Positions 12,962 to 32,797 of a stretch of DNA of 39,807 nt are shown here, in pieces. Position 1 is the stretch's first letter, and every line of letters starts with the position of its first letter. Made by a program: the position numbers and the translations under genes. Origin of the DNA: Candidatus Melainabacteria bacterium (GTDB lineage: Bacteria > Cyanobacteriota > Vampirovibrionia > 2-02-FULL-35-15); assembly GCA_016193285.1 (NCBI GenBank), contig JACPSL010000007.1, positions 1 to 39,807 on the forward strand. Direction: 5' to 3'. The notes below the pieces were generated by a model, which was not told the origin of the DNA, did no database searches, and saw nothing but the letters and a program-made list of their open reading frames with translations.

Positions 12962-14161
12962 TCAATAGTTTAAGAAGATGTTATCTCCTATAATGGTTCC
13001 CTTAACTACATTTCTTTTTGTATTCCAGAAAATTATGTTTGCTTCTTTTCCTAAGATTATTTTCCCTAATCCTAGATTCTGGGCTATTTTTAATTGATTT
13101 GAAATTGGAAGAGAAGCTGAAATTAAACTTTCTTCTAAGTTTGAAACTTTCCAGTTTATTAAATTAGCAACACAATTGTCTAATGTATCTTGCGAGCCAC
13201 CTAAAATGTTTTGTAATTTAGATTGATTATAAAAATCAGATGAAACAAGGTCAGAGACTAATGAAAAATGATTTTTATCTTTATATTCTCTTAGTATTGA
13301 AACAACTTGTCTATTTACATGTACTCCATCAGCAATTACTGTACATAAAACCTCATTACTTTTTAAGAGTGCAAGCATAATTCCATCTTTATCTGGATTA
13401 ATTTTGTTATTATCTTCAAGCTTAGATCTTAAAACCTGTAAATTTAAATCACCTTTGCCTCTATGTATAAATCCATCAATTCCTCTCATTGCATTAAACA
13501 TATGAGTAGCAGTCTTTAAGTTATATTCATTTATTGCTTTTAAACCTTCTTTATAAGTAGCATTTGTATGCCCGATAGAAACCAAGATATTGTTTCTTTG
13601 TAAAAATTTTATTGCTTCGCCTGTTTTATCAAGCTCAGGTGCTAAAGTAAACATTACAACATTTTCTTTTATAAAAGGTTCAATATTTTTAATAGTTAAA
13701 TCTTGTTTTGAATATTTACTTTCATGAACCCCAAACTTAGAAATAAAAATTCCTTCAATATGAATTCCTAAAATTTTTGCACCTGGCTTATCACTAGATT
13801 TTTTAATGTGAGAATTAATATGATTAATTAGTTCAATAATTTGACTTTCAGTCCTTGTAATTATAGTTGGGCAGAATGCTACAACTCCATGAAAAGCTAA
13901 ATCTTGTCTTAAAGCATCAATACTAGAAAAGTCAGGAAATTTCCAAAAACTACAATCCTTAAAACCATTTACCTGTACATCTATAAAACCTGGAGAAATA
14001 ATACAATCTTGTAAATCAATTGTTATGAAGTCACTATTAAAATCTTTTTGTTTTAATCTAACCTTTCCATCAATAACAAATAATTCATTATCAATGTCTA
14101 AACCAATAACCCGAGTAAAATTTGTTAATCTTAATTTATTGATTTTTTTTATGGTATGCAT
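12962..14161 (-). CDS. nagA: N-acetylglucosamine-6-phosphate deacetylase
   Basis: A 399-aa amidohydrolase that removes the acetyl group from GlcNAc-6-phosphate in amino-sugar and peptidoglycan recycling. Motifs in order: ISPGFIDVQVNGF near the N-terminus; ILGIHIEGIFIS (the family's H-x-E-G metal region); VSIGHTNATYKEGL; THMFNAMRGIDGFIHRG; CTVIADGVHVNR; LVSDLVSS, where the catalytic Asp is expected. Length is typical (about 380-400). No nagB accompanies it. The usual HIEGPF reads HIEGIF and the region before the C-terminus is divergent, so substrate preference may differ. Confidence 0.88.
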   Translation of the reverse strand: MHTIKKINKLRLTNFTRVIGLDIDNELFVIDGKVRLKQKDFNSDFITIDLQDCIISPGFIDVQVNGFKDCSFWKFPDFSSIDALRQDLAFHGVVAFCPTIITRTESQIIELINHINSHIKKSSDKPGAKILGIHIEGIFISKFGVHESKYSKQDLTIKNIEPFIKENVVMFTLAPELDKTGEAIKFLQRNNILVSIGHTNATYKEGLKAINEYNLKTATHMFNAMRGIDGFIHRGKGDLNLQVLRSKLEDNNKINPDKDGIMLALLKSNEVLCTVIADGVHVNRQVVSILREYKDKNHFSLVSDLVSSDFYNQSKLQNILGGSQDTLDNCVANLINWKVSNLEESLISASLPISNQLKIAQNLGLGKIILGKEANIIFWNTKRNVVKGTIIGDNIFLNY

Positions 14162-23863: not shown

Positions 23864-25990
23864 ATGAAATTAAAATTAAATCTAGCTTTAGTTGCTCTTT
23901 TGCTTTTAGTCTTTTTAGTCCCAATTCAATTTTTATTTAATCCACAAGAAACAATACCAGACGAAAAACCTATTGCTAAAGAAAAACTCTTAAAAGGCAT
24001 TAGGATAAGTAAAGTTAATACAGAAGAAGCAATTAATTATTTAGAAAATTTAAAAGATCTCCCTAAATATACTGATTACAAAAGAGATTATCTTCTTGCA
24101 AGACTTTATGAAAGGAAAAATAATTACAATAAATCAATTTTAATTTATGAAAAGCTTTTAAGTGAAAACTATCCTTTTAAAGAAAGAGTAATTTTTCACT
24201 ATGCAAATTTAAATACATTAACAAATAACGATAAAGTTGCTTTAGTTTATTTTAAAAAACTAATTCATGATTTTCCAAGCTCAAAATCAATTCCACAAAG
24301 CCTTTATTATTTAGCTCAAACTCTTATGAGACTTAAATTAAATGAAAAAGCAATTGAAACCCTTGTAAATTTAAAATCTAAATATCCAAACACACAATAT
24401 GGCATAGCAACAAATTATTATCTTGGAGAGTTTGCCCTTTATAAAAATAATTTCGAAGAAACACTAAGCTTTTGGAGAAAATATTTAGAGGAAAGTCCAG
24501 ATGGCCGTTTTGCGAATGAAATTGCAGATATTCTTAAAGGTAATTTAAATTTTAAGTTAAATTCTTACGACTTTTCTTTACTTGGAGATGTCTTTTATCA
24601 TAAAAAAGATTATAAGAACTCAATTTACTTTTATAAACTAGCAAATAATCCTAAAGATTATTTTAATTTAGGTTATTCACTCTTTAGACTAGCTAGAAAA
24701 AGTGAAGCAAAAAACTATTTTTACAAACACACAAAAAATTTTCCAAAAGCAGAAAATGCAAAACTTTCACTTCTTTATGCTTCAAGATGTATACCAAGCT
24801 TTATGCAAAGGGCATTTTGGGCAGCTGCTAAAAAAGATATTCCTGAACTTATTTCTTATACAAAATATAAAGAAGCAATCTTAGAAGAAAGCAAAAGAAA
24901 GAAAGAAGAGTTGCTTAGAGAATTTATTTCTACTTATCCAGAAAGTGAGTTTATTCTTGATAGTGTATGGGAAATAATGTGGCAAAAAATACAAGATAAA
25001 GATTATGCTAGTGCAAAAGAAATTGGAGAGAAATATAGTAACTTAAAATCTGACACAAGCTGCAAAATAGGATTTTGGCTAGGAAAAATTGAAGAAATTA
25101 CAAATCAAAAGCTTAAAGCAATAGAGTGTTACAAAAAAGTTAGTGATTTATTATTTGATAATTATTATTCTTTTAGAGCAAGAGCTAGATTGCTTGCACT
25201 AACTGGAGGTGAAGATATTGGATGGAAACAAAAAATAAGCAATCATACAAATAATGTCAACTACACAATTCCACCTATTATAAAACCTGAGACTATAAAA
25301 AGTTATTATGGTGCAACAGTTTTAGAACTTATTAATATTCAAGAATTTAATGAAGCAATCGATTTAATTGGAATAAATAAATCAGCATCAAAAAAAACGA
25401 CCTCCTGGCTAAAAGCTTTAAATGGTGAATATGAAAGTTCCATAAACACTGCAGCTTTACTCTTAGCTCAGTACAACTTAAAATCAAATAATTCTCTGTG
25501 GAAGCTTGCATATCCATTATATTTTTGGGAATTGATTGATGAGGTAAGTAAAGATTATTTAAACATTGATCCTTTTTTAATTTGTAGCTTAATAAGACAA
25601 GAGTCAAGATTTGACAAAGATGCAAAATCTATTTCAGGTGCATTAGGACTTATGCAATTAATACCACCAACTGCTAGAACAGTTTCAAGGCAAAAAAATA
25701 TTAATTTAACCTCGCTTGAACTACTTCAAGCTCCCCAAATAAATATTTTATTAGGTACGCATTATTTAAATGGTTTAATTTCAGACTTTAACAATCCTTT
25801 ATTTGCTGTTAGTAGTTACAATGCAGGACCAGTTGCAGTAAAAAACTGGATTTATAGATTTAATAAAGAAGGCAAAGATCTAGATTTTTTCGTAGAAGAA
25901 ATTCCATACAATGAAACAAGAAATTATGTAAAAAAAGTTTTTGCTAATTATTGGACTTATTTAAGGATTTATGCCGCTGGTCAGACTTGA
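23864..25990 (+). CDS. TPR-containing soluble lytic transglycosylase
   Basis: A 708-aa cell-wall enzyme that cleaves the MurNAc-GlcNAc bond. The N-terminal hydrophobic segment (residues 4-26) is a signal or anchor. A long helical superhelix of TPR-like repeats follows (about 40-540). The SLT domain is at the C-terminus: SLIRQESRFDKDAKS with the catalytic Glu, GALGLMQLIPPTA, and SSYNAGPVAVKNW. This resembles Slt70 organisation with a different repeat scaffold. Its last 19 nt (IYAAGQT-stop) coincide with the 3' end of tRNA-Leu on the other strand. Confidence 0.92.
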   Translation: MKLKLNLALVALLLLVFLVPIQFLFNPQETIPDEKPIAKEKLLKGIRISKVNTEEAINYLENLKDLPKYTDYKRDYLLARLYERKNNYNKSILIYEKLLSENYPFKERVIFHYANLNTLTNNDKVALVYFKKLIHDFPSSKSIPQSLYYLAQTLMRLKLNEKAIETLVNLKSKYPNTQYGIATNYYLGEFALYKNNFEETLSFWRKYLEESPDGRFANEIADILKGNLNFKLNSYDFSLLGDVFYHKKDYKNSIYFYKLANNPKDYFNLGYSLFRLARKSEAKNYFYKHTKNFPKAENAKLSLLYASRCIPSFMQRAFWAAAKKDIPELISYTKYKEAILEESKRKKEELLREFISTYPESEFILDSVWEIMWQKIQDKDYASAKEIGEKYSNLKSDTSCKIGFWLGKIEEITNQKLKAIECYKKVSDLLFDNYYSFRARARLLALTGGEDIGWKQKISNHTNNVNYTIPPIIKPETIKSYYGATVLELINIQEFNEAIDLIGINKSASKKTTSWLKALNGEYESSINTAALLLAQYNLKSNNSLWKLAYPLYFWELIDEVSKDYLNIDPFLICSLIRQESRFDKDAKSISGALGLMQLIPPTARTVSRQKNINLTSLELLQAPQINILLGTHYLNGLISDFNNPLFAVSSYNAGPVAVKNWIYRFNKEGKDLDFFVEEIPYNETRNYVKKVFANYWTYLRIYAAGQT

Positions 25991-26054
25991 ACTGACAAGG
26001 GCTTTCGCCCGGCTGATTTTGAGTCAACTGCGTTTGCCATTTCGCCACAGCGGC
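25972..26054 (-). tRNA. tRNA-Leu (anticodon CAA)
   Basis: An 83-nt class II tRNA. The acceptor GCCGCTG pairs with CAGCGGC and discriminator A. The D-arm GGCGAAATGGCAAACGC, the anticodon loop CTCAAAA with CAA in the middle, the long variable arm GGGC-GAAA-GCCC, and the T-arm GTCAG-TTCAAGT-CTGAC are all visible. CCA is not encoded. It reads UUG codons. The 3' end overlaps the transglycosylase stop region. Confidence 0.95.
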
Positions 26055-26063
26055 ATAAGAAAC

Positions 26064-29362: not shown

Positions 29363-29995
29363 CTACATATTAAACACCCTATCTCCTGCATCACCTAATC
29401 CTGGGATAATAAATCCTTTTGAATTTAAATAGGGATCAATTCCAGCAACATAAAAACGAACATCAGGAAATTTTTCTTCTAGTTTCTTTTTTGCACCTTC
29501 AGAAACAATTACACTTATTACATAAATCTTAGAAACTCCTAAAGCTTTAATTCTTTCTAAGACACTAGAAATAGTTCCGCCAGTAGCAAGCATAGGTTCA
29601 AGCACAAAAAATATTGATTTCTTACTTGTTTTTTTAGGGAGTTTATCAAGGTACCAGTTTGGCTTAAGTGTGACTATACTTCTATATAAACCGACATGTG
29701 CAACTTTTGCTTCTGGAATTAAACTTTTAATTCCAGTAAGCATTCCTAGTGCTGCTCTTAGAACCGGGACTATATAAATATTTTTTTGATTTATAAACTT
29801 TGCTTGAGTTCTTTTTAAAGGAGTTTTTATGTCTTTCTTTAAAGTAATCCCATCTAAGGATGATATTGCCTCTGAAAATAAAAGTAGTCCAATATTTTCA
29901 AGTGCAGTTCGGAATTGTTCTGAAAGGGTTTTTTTATCCCTTGCAATATTTAACCAATGAGTAGTCAAGCTGTTTGAAGATTTTATTACTGGCAT
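29363..29995 (-). CDS. upp: Uracil phosphoribosyltransferase
   Basis: A 210-aa UPRTase that salvages uracil to UMP using PRPP. VPVLRAALGMLTGIKSLIPEAKVAHVGLYR is the substrate-binding block. The PRPP loop is FVLEPMLATGGTISSVLERIKALG (usually VxDPMLATGG; here EPMLATGG). The C-terminal uracil-recognition part is GIDPYLNSKGFIIPGLGDAGDR, where the consensus is GIDxxLNxxGYIxPGLGDAGDR. It lies 42 nt upstream of eno on the same strand. Together with the cytidine deaminase at 35.2 kb it suggests pyrimidine salvage. Confidence 0.96.
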   Translation of the reverse strand: MPVIKSSNSLTTHWLNIARDKKTLSEQFRTALENIGLLLFSEAISSLDGITLKKDIKTPLKRTQAKFINQKNIYIVPVLRAALGMLTGIKSLIPEAKVAHVGLYRSIVTLKPNWYLDKLPKKTSKKSIFFVLEPMLATGGTISSVLERIKALGVSKIYVISVIVSEGAKKKLEEKFPDVRFYVAGIDPYLNSKGFIIPGLGDAGDRVFNM

Positions 29996-30202: not shown

Positions 30203-30997
30203 ATGTTTATATTACTTGCACCAACTCCAGCAGTAACAACAGATACAGTAGGAAGAATTATTGAAACAGCTAAAAGACAAGCACAAGCTGCTGCTGCTGC
30301 ATATGGTACTGCTAGAAGAGTAGGAAAACAAACGGTACAAGAAGTAATGAAAGAGTCACAAGGTAAAAAGCCACCACCTGAAATTGCAGAAGTAGCAAGA
30401 AGACTACCTACAGCAGATGGAACTGAAAGCTTGCAAATGAAACCCACAAGAAAAGGTTTAGATGTTCACAACAGTCTCACAGAAGAAATAAAACAATTTG
30501 ATAAATCACCTGAAGTTGTTGAAGGCAGGAAAAGCAAAACTAAAAGCATTGCAAATTACTATGGTAGAAAAGGACCTGCAACTGCTTATATTACTGTAAG
30601 CCATGGAATTTCTGAAATAGTTACAAGTCACTATACTAAAGATAAAAAAGCAACAGAAGCTCAAGCAAAAAAGTGGATACCAAAAGTTGTTGCTGCTCTT
30701 GAGGTATATGAAAAAACAGGGACTGTACCAAAAGAAGGATTTGAAAGATTTGCAAATGCAGTAGGCATTATAAAAGGTACAATTGAAGGATTAGAGCTGA
30801 AGGGAGCAGCTGATAATAAATATACTGTAAGACTAGATGCACTTGTTGCTAAAGCTGAAGAAATGTCTAAAGGTACAGCAAATCAAACAGCAGAAGAGAT
30901 TATTGAGCAATATAAAAAAGCTCAAGAAGCTCCACCAGTAGCAGGAAAAGTTGGACCAAGAGAAGAACAGGCTCTACCAAAAAAGAGAGCAGCATAA
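30203..30997 (+). CDS. Unknown 264-aa Ala/Lys-rich protein
   Basis: ATG 30203 follows a clear ribosome site (AAGGAGACAAG). The N-terminus MFILLAPTPAVTTDTVGRII has weak hydrophobic character, then an Ala-rich helix (AKRQAQAAAAAYGTARRVGK). The rest is helical and charged, with RKGPATAYITVSHGISEIVTSHY and IIKGTIEGLELKGAADNKYTVRLDALVAKAEEM as the most domain-like stretches. The tail is Pro/Lys-rich. I recognise no family. It is alone on its strand, with a strong hairpin terminator right after the stop shared with the 5S rRNA gene. Its length and good signals make it a real gene. Confidence 0.7.
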   Translation: MFILLAPTPAVTTDTVGRIIETAKRQAQAAAAAYGTARRVGKQTVQEVMKESQGKKPPPEIAEVARRLPTADGTESLQMKPTRKGLDVHNSLTEEIKQFDKSPEVVEGRKSKTKSIANYYGRKGPATAYITVSHGISEIVTSHYTKDKKATEAQAKKWIPKVVAALEVYEKTGTVPKEGFERFANAVGIIKGTIEGLELKGAADNKYTVRLDALVAKAEEMSKGTANQTAEEIIEQYKKAQEAPPVAGKVGPREEQALPKKRAA

Positions 30998-31016
30998 AAA
31001 AATAAAATTAACTAAT

Positions 31017-31050
31017 TAAAAACCCTCCGCTTTCACGGAGGGTTTTTAAA
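31017..31050. terminator. Bidirectional terminator between the 264-aa gene and 5S rRNA
   Basis: ACCCTCCG-CTTTCA-CGGAGGGT stem flanked by TTTTT on the plus strand and by AAAAA (T-run on the minus strand) on the other side. It can stop transcription from both directions. Confidence 0.9.
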
Positions 31051-31057
31051 TTTAAAA

Positions 31058-31176
31058 TCCCTGGCACATGACTATCTTCTCTAAACCTTGCGATTTAAAT
31101 ATTGTCGTTGCTAGCTGTCTTTACCGTCCTGTTCGGAATGGGAAGGGGTGTGTTCCAACCGCATAAGCACCAAGGA
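31058..31176 (-). rRNA. rrf: 5S ribosomal RNA
   Basis: 119 nt on the minus strand. The 5' end TCCTTGGTGC and 3' end GTGCCAGGGA pair as helix I. The central ACACCCCTTCCCATTCCGAACAGG is the universal 5S loop region, and GCAACGACAATATT with GTCGTT continues the fold. No 16S or 23S is adjacent: on its upstream side lies pepA on the opposite strand, and downstream is the shared terminator. TATAAT at plus-strand 31184-31189 sits at the right distance for a start at the mature 5' end. Confidence 0.95.
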
Positions 31177-31183
31177 GATATTT

Positions 31184-31189
31184 ATTATA
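31184..31189 (-). promoter_or_regulatory. -10 element of the 5S rRNA gene
   Basis: TATAAT on the minus strand, seven bases before the predicted mature 5' end. The -35 region is not convincing. Confidence 0.55.
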
Positions 31190-31220
31190 CAACAAAATAA
31201 AAAAACACCACTAGCAGATT

Positions 31221-31282: not shown

Positions 31283-32797
31283 ATGAAAGTAATCTTAAAA
31301 AATCAAAAATTAGAAAATATAAAATGTGATGTACTGATTGTAAATCTTTTTGAAGGAGTTAAAACTCCAGGAGGTGGAACTGGAGCAGTTGATCTTGCTC
31401 TTAAGGGCTTAATAAAAAAAATAATTAAAGAAGAAGATTTTAAAGGAAAAATTGGTTCAACACTTGTAATTAGAACAAATGGTCAAATCCCAGCTAAGAA
31501 AGTTATTGTAGTTGGGCTTGGAAAAAAAGAAAAGTTTAATCTTGGTGGGGTTCGAAAAGTAGCAGCAGCATCTTTAAGAACAGCAAAAAAAGAAAGCGGA
31601 AAAACAGTTTGTACTATTTTACATGGCGCAGGCGGAGAAAAAATTGAGAGAATTAATCCAAAAGATACAGCACAAGCAATTACTGAAGTAGCACATCTTG
31701 CGCTTTATGAGTTTACTAAATATAAATCAAAAGATAAAAATGAATCAAAACATGAGATTAATACATTAATAATTGCTGAGATTGATAAAACAAAATTAAA
31801 AAATGTTGAAATTGGAATTAAAAGAGGAAATATAGTTGCAAAAGCTCAAAAACTTGCACGTGATTTAGTTAGTGAACCAGCATTATCAGCTACTCCTACA
31901 AAACTTGCAAATGTTGCAAAACAAGTAGCAAGAGAAAATAAATTAAAGATTAAAGTTTTAGACAGGGATAATTGTAAAAAACTTAAAATGGGTGCATTTT
32001 TAGCAGTAGCACAAGGCAGTAAAGAACCACCAAAATTTATTGAGATAAAATATATTCCAAAAAAGAAACCAAAAAAACATATAGCAATTATTGGAAAAGG
32101 AATAACATTTGATTCAGGAGGACTTTCGCTTAAGCCAGCAAATTCAATGGAAACAATGAAAGATGATATGTCTGGAGCAGCAGCAGCAATTGCAACAATG
32201 AGTACAATAAGGGAACTAAAACCAGATGTTGCAGTAACTATGATAGTTGCAGCTACTGAAAATATGCCAAGCGGAAGTGCATACAAGCCAGGGGATGTTA
32301 TTCGTGCAATGAATGGAAAGACTATTGAGATTTTAAATACAGATGCAGAAGGACGTGTAACTCTTGCAGATGCTATTTCATATGCTGCAAAACAAAAGCC
32401 AGATGAAATAGTTGATCTTGCAACATTAACAGGTGCATGTGTAGTTGCACTTGGAGACACAGCTAGTGGAGTTATGACAAACAATCAAAAACTTGTAGAG
32501 AAAATTATTAAAGCAGGAAATGAAGCTGGAGAAAGAATGTGGCAATTACCTATTTATGATGAAGATAGAGAAAAAATAAAAAGTGATATTGCAGACATGA
32601 TAAATACTGGTTCAAAAGGAAAATCAGGTGCACAAAATGGCGCAGTATTTATTGAAAAGTTTGTAAATGATATTCCATGGGTTCACATTGATATTGCAGG
32701 GCCATCATGGATAGATAAAGAAAATGATTATGGACCAAAAGGGCCAACAGGAGTAGGAGTAAGAACGTTGATTAATTATTTAACGAATTATGCCTAA
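31283..32797 (+). CDS. pepA: Leucyl aminopeptidase (M17)
   Basis: A 504-aa cytosolic M17 metallo-aminopeptidase that removes N-terminal residues from peptides. The catalytic domain carries GKGITFDSGGLSLKPANSMETMKDDMSGAAA with metal ligands and the Lys, then NTDAEGRVTLADAI with the second metal ligands, and IDIAGPSW near the end. The N-terminal domain GVKTPGGGTGAVDLALKG and VVGLGKKEKFN is typical. A reading frame open from 31148 would run through the 5S rRNA gene and the palindrome, so I start at ATG 31283 (MKVILKNQKLE), behind GAAAGGGAAAA. It overlaps radA by 8 nt. Confidence 0.95.
   Translation: MKVILKNQKLENIKCDVLIVNLFEGVKTPGGGTGAVDLALKGLIKKIIKEEDFKGKIGSTLVIRTNGQIPAKKVIVVGLGKKEKFNLGGVRKVAAASLRTAKKESGKTVCTILHGAGGEKIERINPKDTAQAITEVAHLALYEFTKYKSKDKNESKHEINTLIIAEIDKTKLKNVEIGIKRGNIVAKAQKLARDLVSEPALSATPTKLANVAKQVARENKLKIKVLDRDNCKKLKMGAFLAVAQGSKEPPKFIEIKYIPKKKPKKHIAIIGKGITFDSGGLSLKPANSMETMKDDMSGAAAAIATMSTIRELKPDVAVTMIVAATENMPSGSAYKPGDVIRAMNGKTIEILNTDAEGRVTLADAISYAAKQKPDEIVDLATLTGACVVALGDTASGVMTNNQKLVEKIIKAGNEAGERMWQLPIYDEDREKIKSDIADMINTGSKGKSGAQNGAVFIEKFVNDIPWVHIDIAGPSWIDKENDYGPKGPTGVGVRTLINYLTNYA

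Follow-up and report, generated by a model that had tools for sequence, protein, structure and literature searches.

The 39,807-nt stretch of DNA analyzed here (the window), from a draft genome of a Candidatus Melainabacteria bacterium, contains a single 5S rRNA gene, at 31059-31174 on the minus strand. The gene is full length, as the match to the Rfam 5S model found by cmscan (RF00001) covers model positions 1-120, and its score of 52 bits is above the gathering threshold of 38 (E 3.7e-8). The same search of the whole window revealed no 16S or 23S rRNA gene. Besides the 5S gene, cmscan and a tRNA search found one tRNA, tRNA-Leu(CAA) at 25971-26055 (minus strand), which overlaps the 3' part of a 708-aa open reading frame (ORF; 23864-25990, plus strand) by 20 nt. 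A prior sequence-only reading had described the 5S gene as free-standing, flanked by protein genes on the opposite strand and without a 16S or 23S gene nearby, and all of this holds. Upstream is a divergent leucyl aminopeptidase gene (lap, 31283-32797, plus strand; NCBIfam NF002083), whose start codon lies 108 nt from the 5S 5' end and which is followed by radA. Downstream is a convergent 264-aa ORF (30203-30997, plus strand), which matched nothing in NCBIfam or Pfam and, by tblastn (E 1e-3), nothing in the other loci inspected from families f1, f4, and f6 (see below). The next conserved neighbor on that side is the uracil phosphoribosyltransferase gene (upp, 29363-29995, minus strand; TIGR01091). 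We took a 212-aa frame antisense within lap as spurious. With that frame set aside, the nearest listed minus-strand ORF of at least 80 aa upstream of the 5S gene is 3 kb away, so read-through into the 5S gene is unlikely and the gene probably needs a promoter of its own.

The same reading had placed a -10 element before the gene and a terminator after it, and we identified both. The hexamer TATAAT (31184-31189, minus strand) sits 9 nt ahead of the first Rfam position of the 5S rRNA. At this gene alone it is mildly unusual (P 0.013, 300 shuffles), and a consensus promoter scan of the window listed no promoter at the 5S gene. The -35 position expected of a sigma-70-type promoter, after a 16-nt spacer, holds a poor match (GTGGTG, 31206-31211, minus strand; 2/6), which is why the promoter may rely on AT-rich upstream DNA or be weaker. 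Bacterial -10 elements usually lie 5-8 nt from the transcription start, which would put the start here some 1-4 nt ahead of Rfam position 1; the sequence-only reading had placed it at the mature 5' end. Helix I of the 5S rRNA can be extended, with the preceding TC pairing with the following GA, so there may be no leader at all. Behind the gene, a hairpin of ~14 pairs with a T run occupies 31016-31049 (minus strand; -22.9 kcal/mol for the 50-nt stretch). The hairpin is symmetrical, and this intrinsic terminator is therefore probably shared with the convergent 264-aa ORF. A rule-based terminator scan of the window found none at the 5S gene; in our reading, it missed the hairpin because the rule looks for a T run beyond the stem, whereas the Ts of this hairpin are themselves base-paired stem residues.

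We located the other rRNA genes in the draft genome, which comprises 1,813,604 bases (1.81 Mb) in 39 contigs and is 96.14% complete. It contains one 5S gene (that of the window), one 16S gene, and one 23S gene, on different contigs and none near another. The 16S gene (contig C39, 21321-22810, minus strand) lies between an ATPase/DUF4143 gene and rpsO-pnp. The 23S gene (contig C31, 16360-20014, plus strand) is flanked by a glycosyltransferase gene on one side and a UPF0047 gene on the other, and the intervening gaps contain small frames. Both are inside their contigs with protein-coding frames on either side, and searches with Rfam and ARAGORN recovered no further rRNA gene and no tRNA in the 14 kb around the 16S gene or the 19.5 kb around the 23S gene. 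Within 1.5 kb upstream of the 5S gene there is no 23S 3' end but the divergent protein gene instead. All three rRNA genes are thus dispersed in the draft, which bears out the earlier suggestion of a broken rRNA operon. A complete operon with its own 5S gene, the finding that the suggestion had named as its counter-case, did not appear in the draft; the ~4% of the genome that may be missing leaves a small chance of an unseen rRNA copy.

We profiled the linkage of 5S and 23S genes in 77 genomes, including this one. A 5S match was found in 60 and none in 17 (among them G005 of family f1, the family of our genome, and G020 of f6). For each 5S gene, the upstream 1.5 kb (1.07 kb in G039) were searched for a 23S 3' end. 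The 5S gene was unlinked from 23S in all 23 genes of three families (f1, 10/10; f4, 9/9; f6, 4/4) and linked in all 33 genes of five others (f2, 14/14; f3, 7/7; f5, 8/8; f8, 2/2 testable; f9, 2/2). No call was made for G016, G021, G049, and G064, which have too little sequence upstream of the 5S gene. The counts also leave out a second 5S hit of G053 that BLAST did not locate (L021, L186), the second copies of G017 (L188, linked) and G027 (L187, with 31 nt upstream only), and a 60-nt partial BLAST place in G035. One f4 genome (G033) carries all three genes on a single 351-kb contig, at about 55, 141, and 198 kb.

Other arrangements occur elsewhere in the class. The 16S gene is apart from a 23S-5S pair in the four f2 genomes in which a full-length 16S gene away from contig ends allowed its placement to be judged (G011, G035, G040, G076). 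In f8, 16S, 23S, and 5S are consecutive (G017, G027). Family f3 shows operon-like spacing in G041, G053, G059, and G032 (the last with a 1.4-kb spacer), adjacent 16S and 23S genes in G036, and a 4.3-kb 16S-23S spacer on one strand in G012. Among genomes of the same phylum outside the class, presumably cyanobacteria, 8 of 10 stretches around the 5S gene hold 16S and 23S in operon-like order; of the other two, one had no 16S gene found in the stretch (G094) and one is cut by a contig end (G107).

The surroundings of the 5S gene are conserved within f1. Each of the ten f1 genomes with a 5S match has a divergent lap whose start is 109-350 nt away from that of the 5S gene and, on the opposite side, an upp gene beginning at a distance of 1.0-1.3 kb from the 5S start. 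Next to this lap, a second lap-like gene or fragment is present in some f1 relatives (L050, L053, L056). The closest lap homologues are nine records with 73-83% identity, eight from Candidatus Melainabacteria and one from Candidatus Caenarcanales, an order of Vampirovibriophyceae within Melainabacteria (NCBI taxonomy). One record is from groundwater by name, and the names nzgw and SSGW suggest groundwater for others. In all nine, a 5S gene precedes lap by 124-350 nt and is read from the other strand; in the remaining 71 of the 80 loci, BLAST detected no 5S gene. These comparisons bear on the concern that the 5S gene was misjoined in binning or assembly. The window sequence is probably a metagenome assembly, judging from its draft state and from its named relatives, which are all MAGs. 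However, such an artefact is barely credible, because the same arrangement recurs in the nine records, which span several isolate name series, and in nine f1 relatives; the 5S sequences of the relatives are identical to those of the records, and the two sets are not independent. In a 2014 genome table, as far as the excerpt goes, Caenarcanum bioreactoricola is listed with 16S and 23S and no 5S, which was perhaps missed or outside the assembly (PMC4040986).

The neighbors differ in the other two unlinked families. Inspection of four f4 genomes placed pnp (NCBIfam-confirmed) at distances of ~0.3 kb (G033), 1.2 kb (G023), and 2.0 kb (G018) from the 5S start; it was not seen near the 5S gene of the fourth, G013. 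Among f6 genomes, the start of rpoB (NCBIfam-confirmed) is ~280-320 nt away from that of the 5S gene in G015 and G025, but not in G030. From these differing neighbors in the genomes inspected, we conclude that the 5S gene settled in different places.

Phylogenetic analysis of 16S and 23S sequences (44 rows, several with one gene only, including 20 from f1, f4, and f6 and nine same-phylum outgroups) revealed that f1, f4, and f6 form one clade with 100/100 support; the deeper branch order was not settled. A single loss of 23S-5S linkage in the ancestor of these families is therefore the simplest history. Several independent losses are conceivable, given that the 5S contexts differ among the three families. 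Dispersal might have arisen as a by-product when the genome shrank or the lineage came to depend on a host, as in Buchnera or Wolbachia, and genome size allows a partial judgement of this. Our genome has 1.8 Mb and the linked f2 genomes are larger (3.0-8.1 Mb), and excerpts of the literature tie unlinked rRNA genes to symbiosis (PMC7761764) and their decoupling especially to genomes below 2 Mb (PMC8172020). Against this, the linked f5 genomes with a 5S match are themselves small (1.8-2.0 Mb), and the largest dispersed genomes have 2.8 Mb (f1) and 3.1 Mb (f4). Linked and unlinked genomes of the class cannot be told apart by size alone, and we regard the by-product explanation as unlikely. The sequence-only reading had compared the unlinked gene with those of some reduced genomes: this is a fair analogy as far as the excerpted literature goes (PMC8172020), and size by itself does not carry it.

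We compared the 23 unlinked 5S genes with the base pairs of the Rfam model, using 500 shuffles that do not control for kinship among the rows. Of the cells in the Rfam helices, 86.4% are paired, compared with 80.2% after shuffling (0/500 as high), and sliding the pair partners lowers this to 28-45%. Both sides are altered in 14 pairs (7/500 shuffles as high) and in 64 cells (0/500), and covariation is 0.324 compared with 0.191 in shuffles (0/500). For three of the 34 Rfam pairs (columns 22-59, 73-102, and 68-107), most rows show no pairing. This pattern is not that expected of a pseudogene. It thereby speaks to a further explanation, in which the window holds a surplus or degenerating copy and the assembly lost a normal operon, complete with a 5S gene, when repeated rRNA operons collapsed. 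A draft of 39 contigs at 96% completeness would allow such a loss, and the 52 bits of the window 5S are the third-lowest best score among the 60 genomes with a match. However, the single 5S, 16S, and 23S genes found are each inside a contig, each of the ten f1 genomes with a 5S gene has exactly one match in the same lap context, and genes of this type have covarying helices and a conserved -10 element. We consider an extra or decaying copy highly improbable.

The -10 element is conserved upstream of the f1 genes. TATAAT is perfect in nine of ten genomes and TACAAT in the tenth, with a gap to the 5S gene of 8 nt in eight genomes, 9 nt in ours, and 6 nt in G003. The summed match is 59/60, where shuffles averaged 41 and reached at most 48 (0/300 as high). 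Together with the last bases before the 5S gene, these columns are nearly the only conserved ones in ~50 nt upstream; this conservation across f1 makes the TATAAT in our genome convincing. Two f1 relatives have a perfect TTGACA (6/6) at the -35 position. All nine f4 genes show an extended -10, with TGC ahead of TAAGAT, TATAAA, or a similar hexamer, and all four f6 genes combine TTGACA with a spacer of 17 nt. The clade therefore shows three promoter types at the same spacing: TATAAT without a consistent -35, extended -10, and TTGACA with a weak -10. Elements resembling a promoter, located 6-9 nt ahead of the 5S gene, scored at least 10 in 23/23 unlinked versus 1/33 linked genes, with the caveat that the joint score (-35 plus extended -10) and its cut-off of 10 were both chosen after the sequences had been seen and that related genomes are not independent. 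A blind search for the best hexamer had put the -10 wrongly in several f4 and f6 genes and was redone with this score. The blind search itself gave a sum of 41/54 in f4 (0/300 shuffles as high), and a plain TATAAT search in f6 gave 18/24, which is not above chance (68/300 as high).

Terminators were found in two of the three unlinked families. A hairpin with a T run lies within 75 nt of the 5S gene in 10/10 f1 and 9/9 f4 genomes; in the shuffle control, which covered f1 only, 0/100 shuffles reached the hairpin score in any genome. In the four f6 genomes, no terminator meeting these criteria was found within 75 nt.

We searched for processing stems around 16S and 23S genes by local pairing between 200-nt flanks, with 30 shuffles per gene. 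The 16S gene of our genome has a flanking stem of ~31 pairs (z 9.4) and the 23S gene one of ~25 pairs (z 8.5); both had been overlooked by duplex energies over 80-nt flanks, which we abandoned. In f1, stems exceeded all 30 shuffles for 16S in 5/6 genomes (the failure, in G006, is at a contig end) and for 23S in 5/5, and compensatory differences between f1 genomes were seen by eye. Across all families tested, stems exceeded every shuffle in 22/27 16S and 19/22 23S genes. Linked genes carry them too, so the stems are not peculiar to dispersed genes. A possible outer 23S processing stem consists of the partly complementary segments CTGAAAACTGCATACA upstream of and TGTATGCAG after the 23S gene (L005:9541-9556 and 13542-13550), with fuller complementarity in relatives such as G001.

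A promoter-like TTG[AC]TA-N17-TATTAT starts 175-287 nt before the 16S gene in 6/6 f1 genomes examined; it occurred in 0-2 of 500 shuffles each, a comparison in which the pattern itself was derived from an earlier scan of f1 sequences. In type it differs from the 5S promoter. For the 23S gene, the five f1 genomes scanned yielded no convincing promoter. RNase III was detected in 39/40 genomes including ours, 38 of them over the cut-off. RNase M5 reached the TIGR00334 cut-off in none of the 40, ours included (19.9 bits); weak matches in 21/40, all listed ones in open frames of at least 403 aa, look like Toprim domains of other proteins. Loss of RNase M5 is uninformative as a correlate of a free 5S gene, since no genome of the 40, linked or not, reaches the cut-off.

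We interpret the window gene as the working, and probably sole, 5S gene of a bacterium with a fully dispersed rRNA operon, in which each rRNA gene would be its own transcription unit (probability about 0.88, as judged from sequence comparisons). RNA polymerase would start ~0-4 nt from the mature 5' end of the 5S rRNA and stop at the hairpin. With a nearly leaderless start and this stop, the 5S rRNA would require 3' trimming alone and hardly any processing, if any, at its 5' end. The 16S and 23S rRNAs would be cut from separate precursors by RNase III, and rRNA stoichiometry would be set by three separate promoters and not by co-transcription. The 23S-5S separation would have happened once, in the ancestor of f1, f4, and f6, followed by differing places and promoter types.

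More tentatively, and with slightly less than even confidence, we propose that this clade makes its 5S rRNA almost ready, starting no more than ~4 nt from the mature 5' end and ending, for f1 and f4, at a terminator just 3' of the gene. Production of 5S rRNA would thereby be freed from 16S/23S transcription and from 5' endonuclease processing. The three promoter types at one spacing suggest rebuilding or strong remodelling within one old clade in which dispersal is fixed. Eukaryotes, with their separate 5S genes, offer a comparison for such freed production.

Dispersed rRNA genes have precedents. In Leptospira interrogans, according to an excerpt (PMC3037291), 16S, 23S, and 5S are physically separate without an operon and there is one 5S gene; this resembles our genome in the dispersal of all three genes and the single 5S, whereas Leptospira belongs to another phylum and has two 16S and one or two 23S copies. 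In Thermoplasma acidophilum, an excerpted source reports all three genes unlinked (PMC7761764). The full unlinking is the same, but Thermoplasma is an archaeon. Its promoters differ from the bacterial type found here. In CPR genomes, 16S-23S is often and 23S-5S sometimes unlinked, the latter being "very unusual" in bacteria in the words of the passage available (PMC8172020); the unlinking is clade-specific as here, in an unrelated lineage. The excerpted literature also describes a 16S gene apart from a 23S-5S unit in Helicobacter pylori, Borrelia, and Wolbachia (PMC7761764, PMC3037291), with RNase III involved with the separate precursors in Helicobacter (same sources), and a reference title alone gives 23S-5S as one unit in Buchnera (PMC8172020). 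These bacteria share the broken operon and separate precursors but keep 23S and 5S together, which resembles family f2 and not our genome. An earlier survey found fewer RNase III genes in unlinked genomes and a later one no significant difference, as summarized in part of PMC7761764; our genome has kept RNase III. Given Leptospira, Thermoplasma, and some CPR bacteria, the dispersal reported here is a clade-wide addition to a known phenomenon. We found no description of dispersed rRNA genes in Melainabacteria or of tight 5S promoters in a search that did not take in the main survey of unlinked rRNA genes, so that this absence is not proof; the passages seen of two Melainabacteria genome papers (PMC4040986, PMC3787301) do not mention the term 'rRNA operon'.

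The class offers a natural series, from operon-like order in some families, through 16S apart with 23S-5S together in one, to all three genes apart in one clade. Co-transcription is the textbook means of making rRNAs in equal amounts, and the series serves the question of how rRNA stoichiometry and processing survive operon loss. Unlinked rRNA genes are reportedly widespread (Brewer et al. 2020). Amplicons spanning 16S-ITS-23S will presumably miss these Melainabacteria. As a separate observation, the 23S gene of our genome holds an insertion of ~695 nt with an ORF for a LAGLIDADG endonuclease (L005:11937-12485; PF00961, E 1.6e-22). In the relative G006, the 23S gene is interrupted at roughly the same position and contains a further insertion of ~400 nt.
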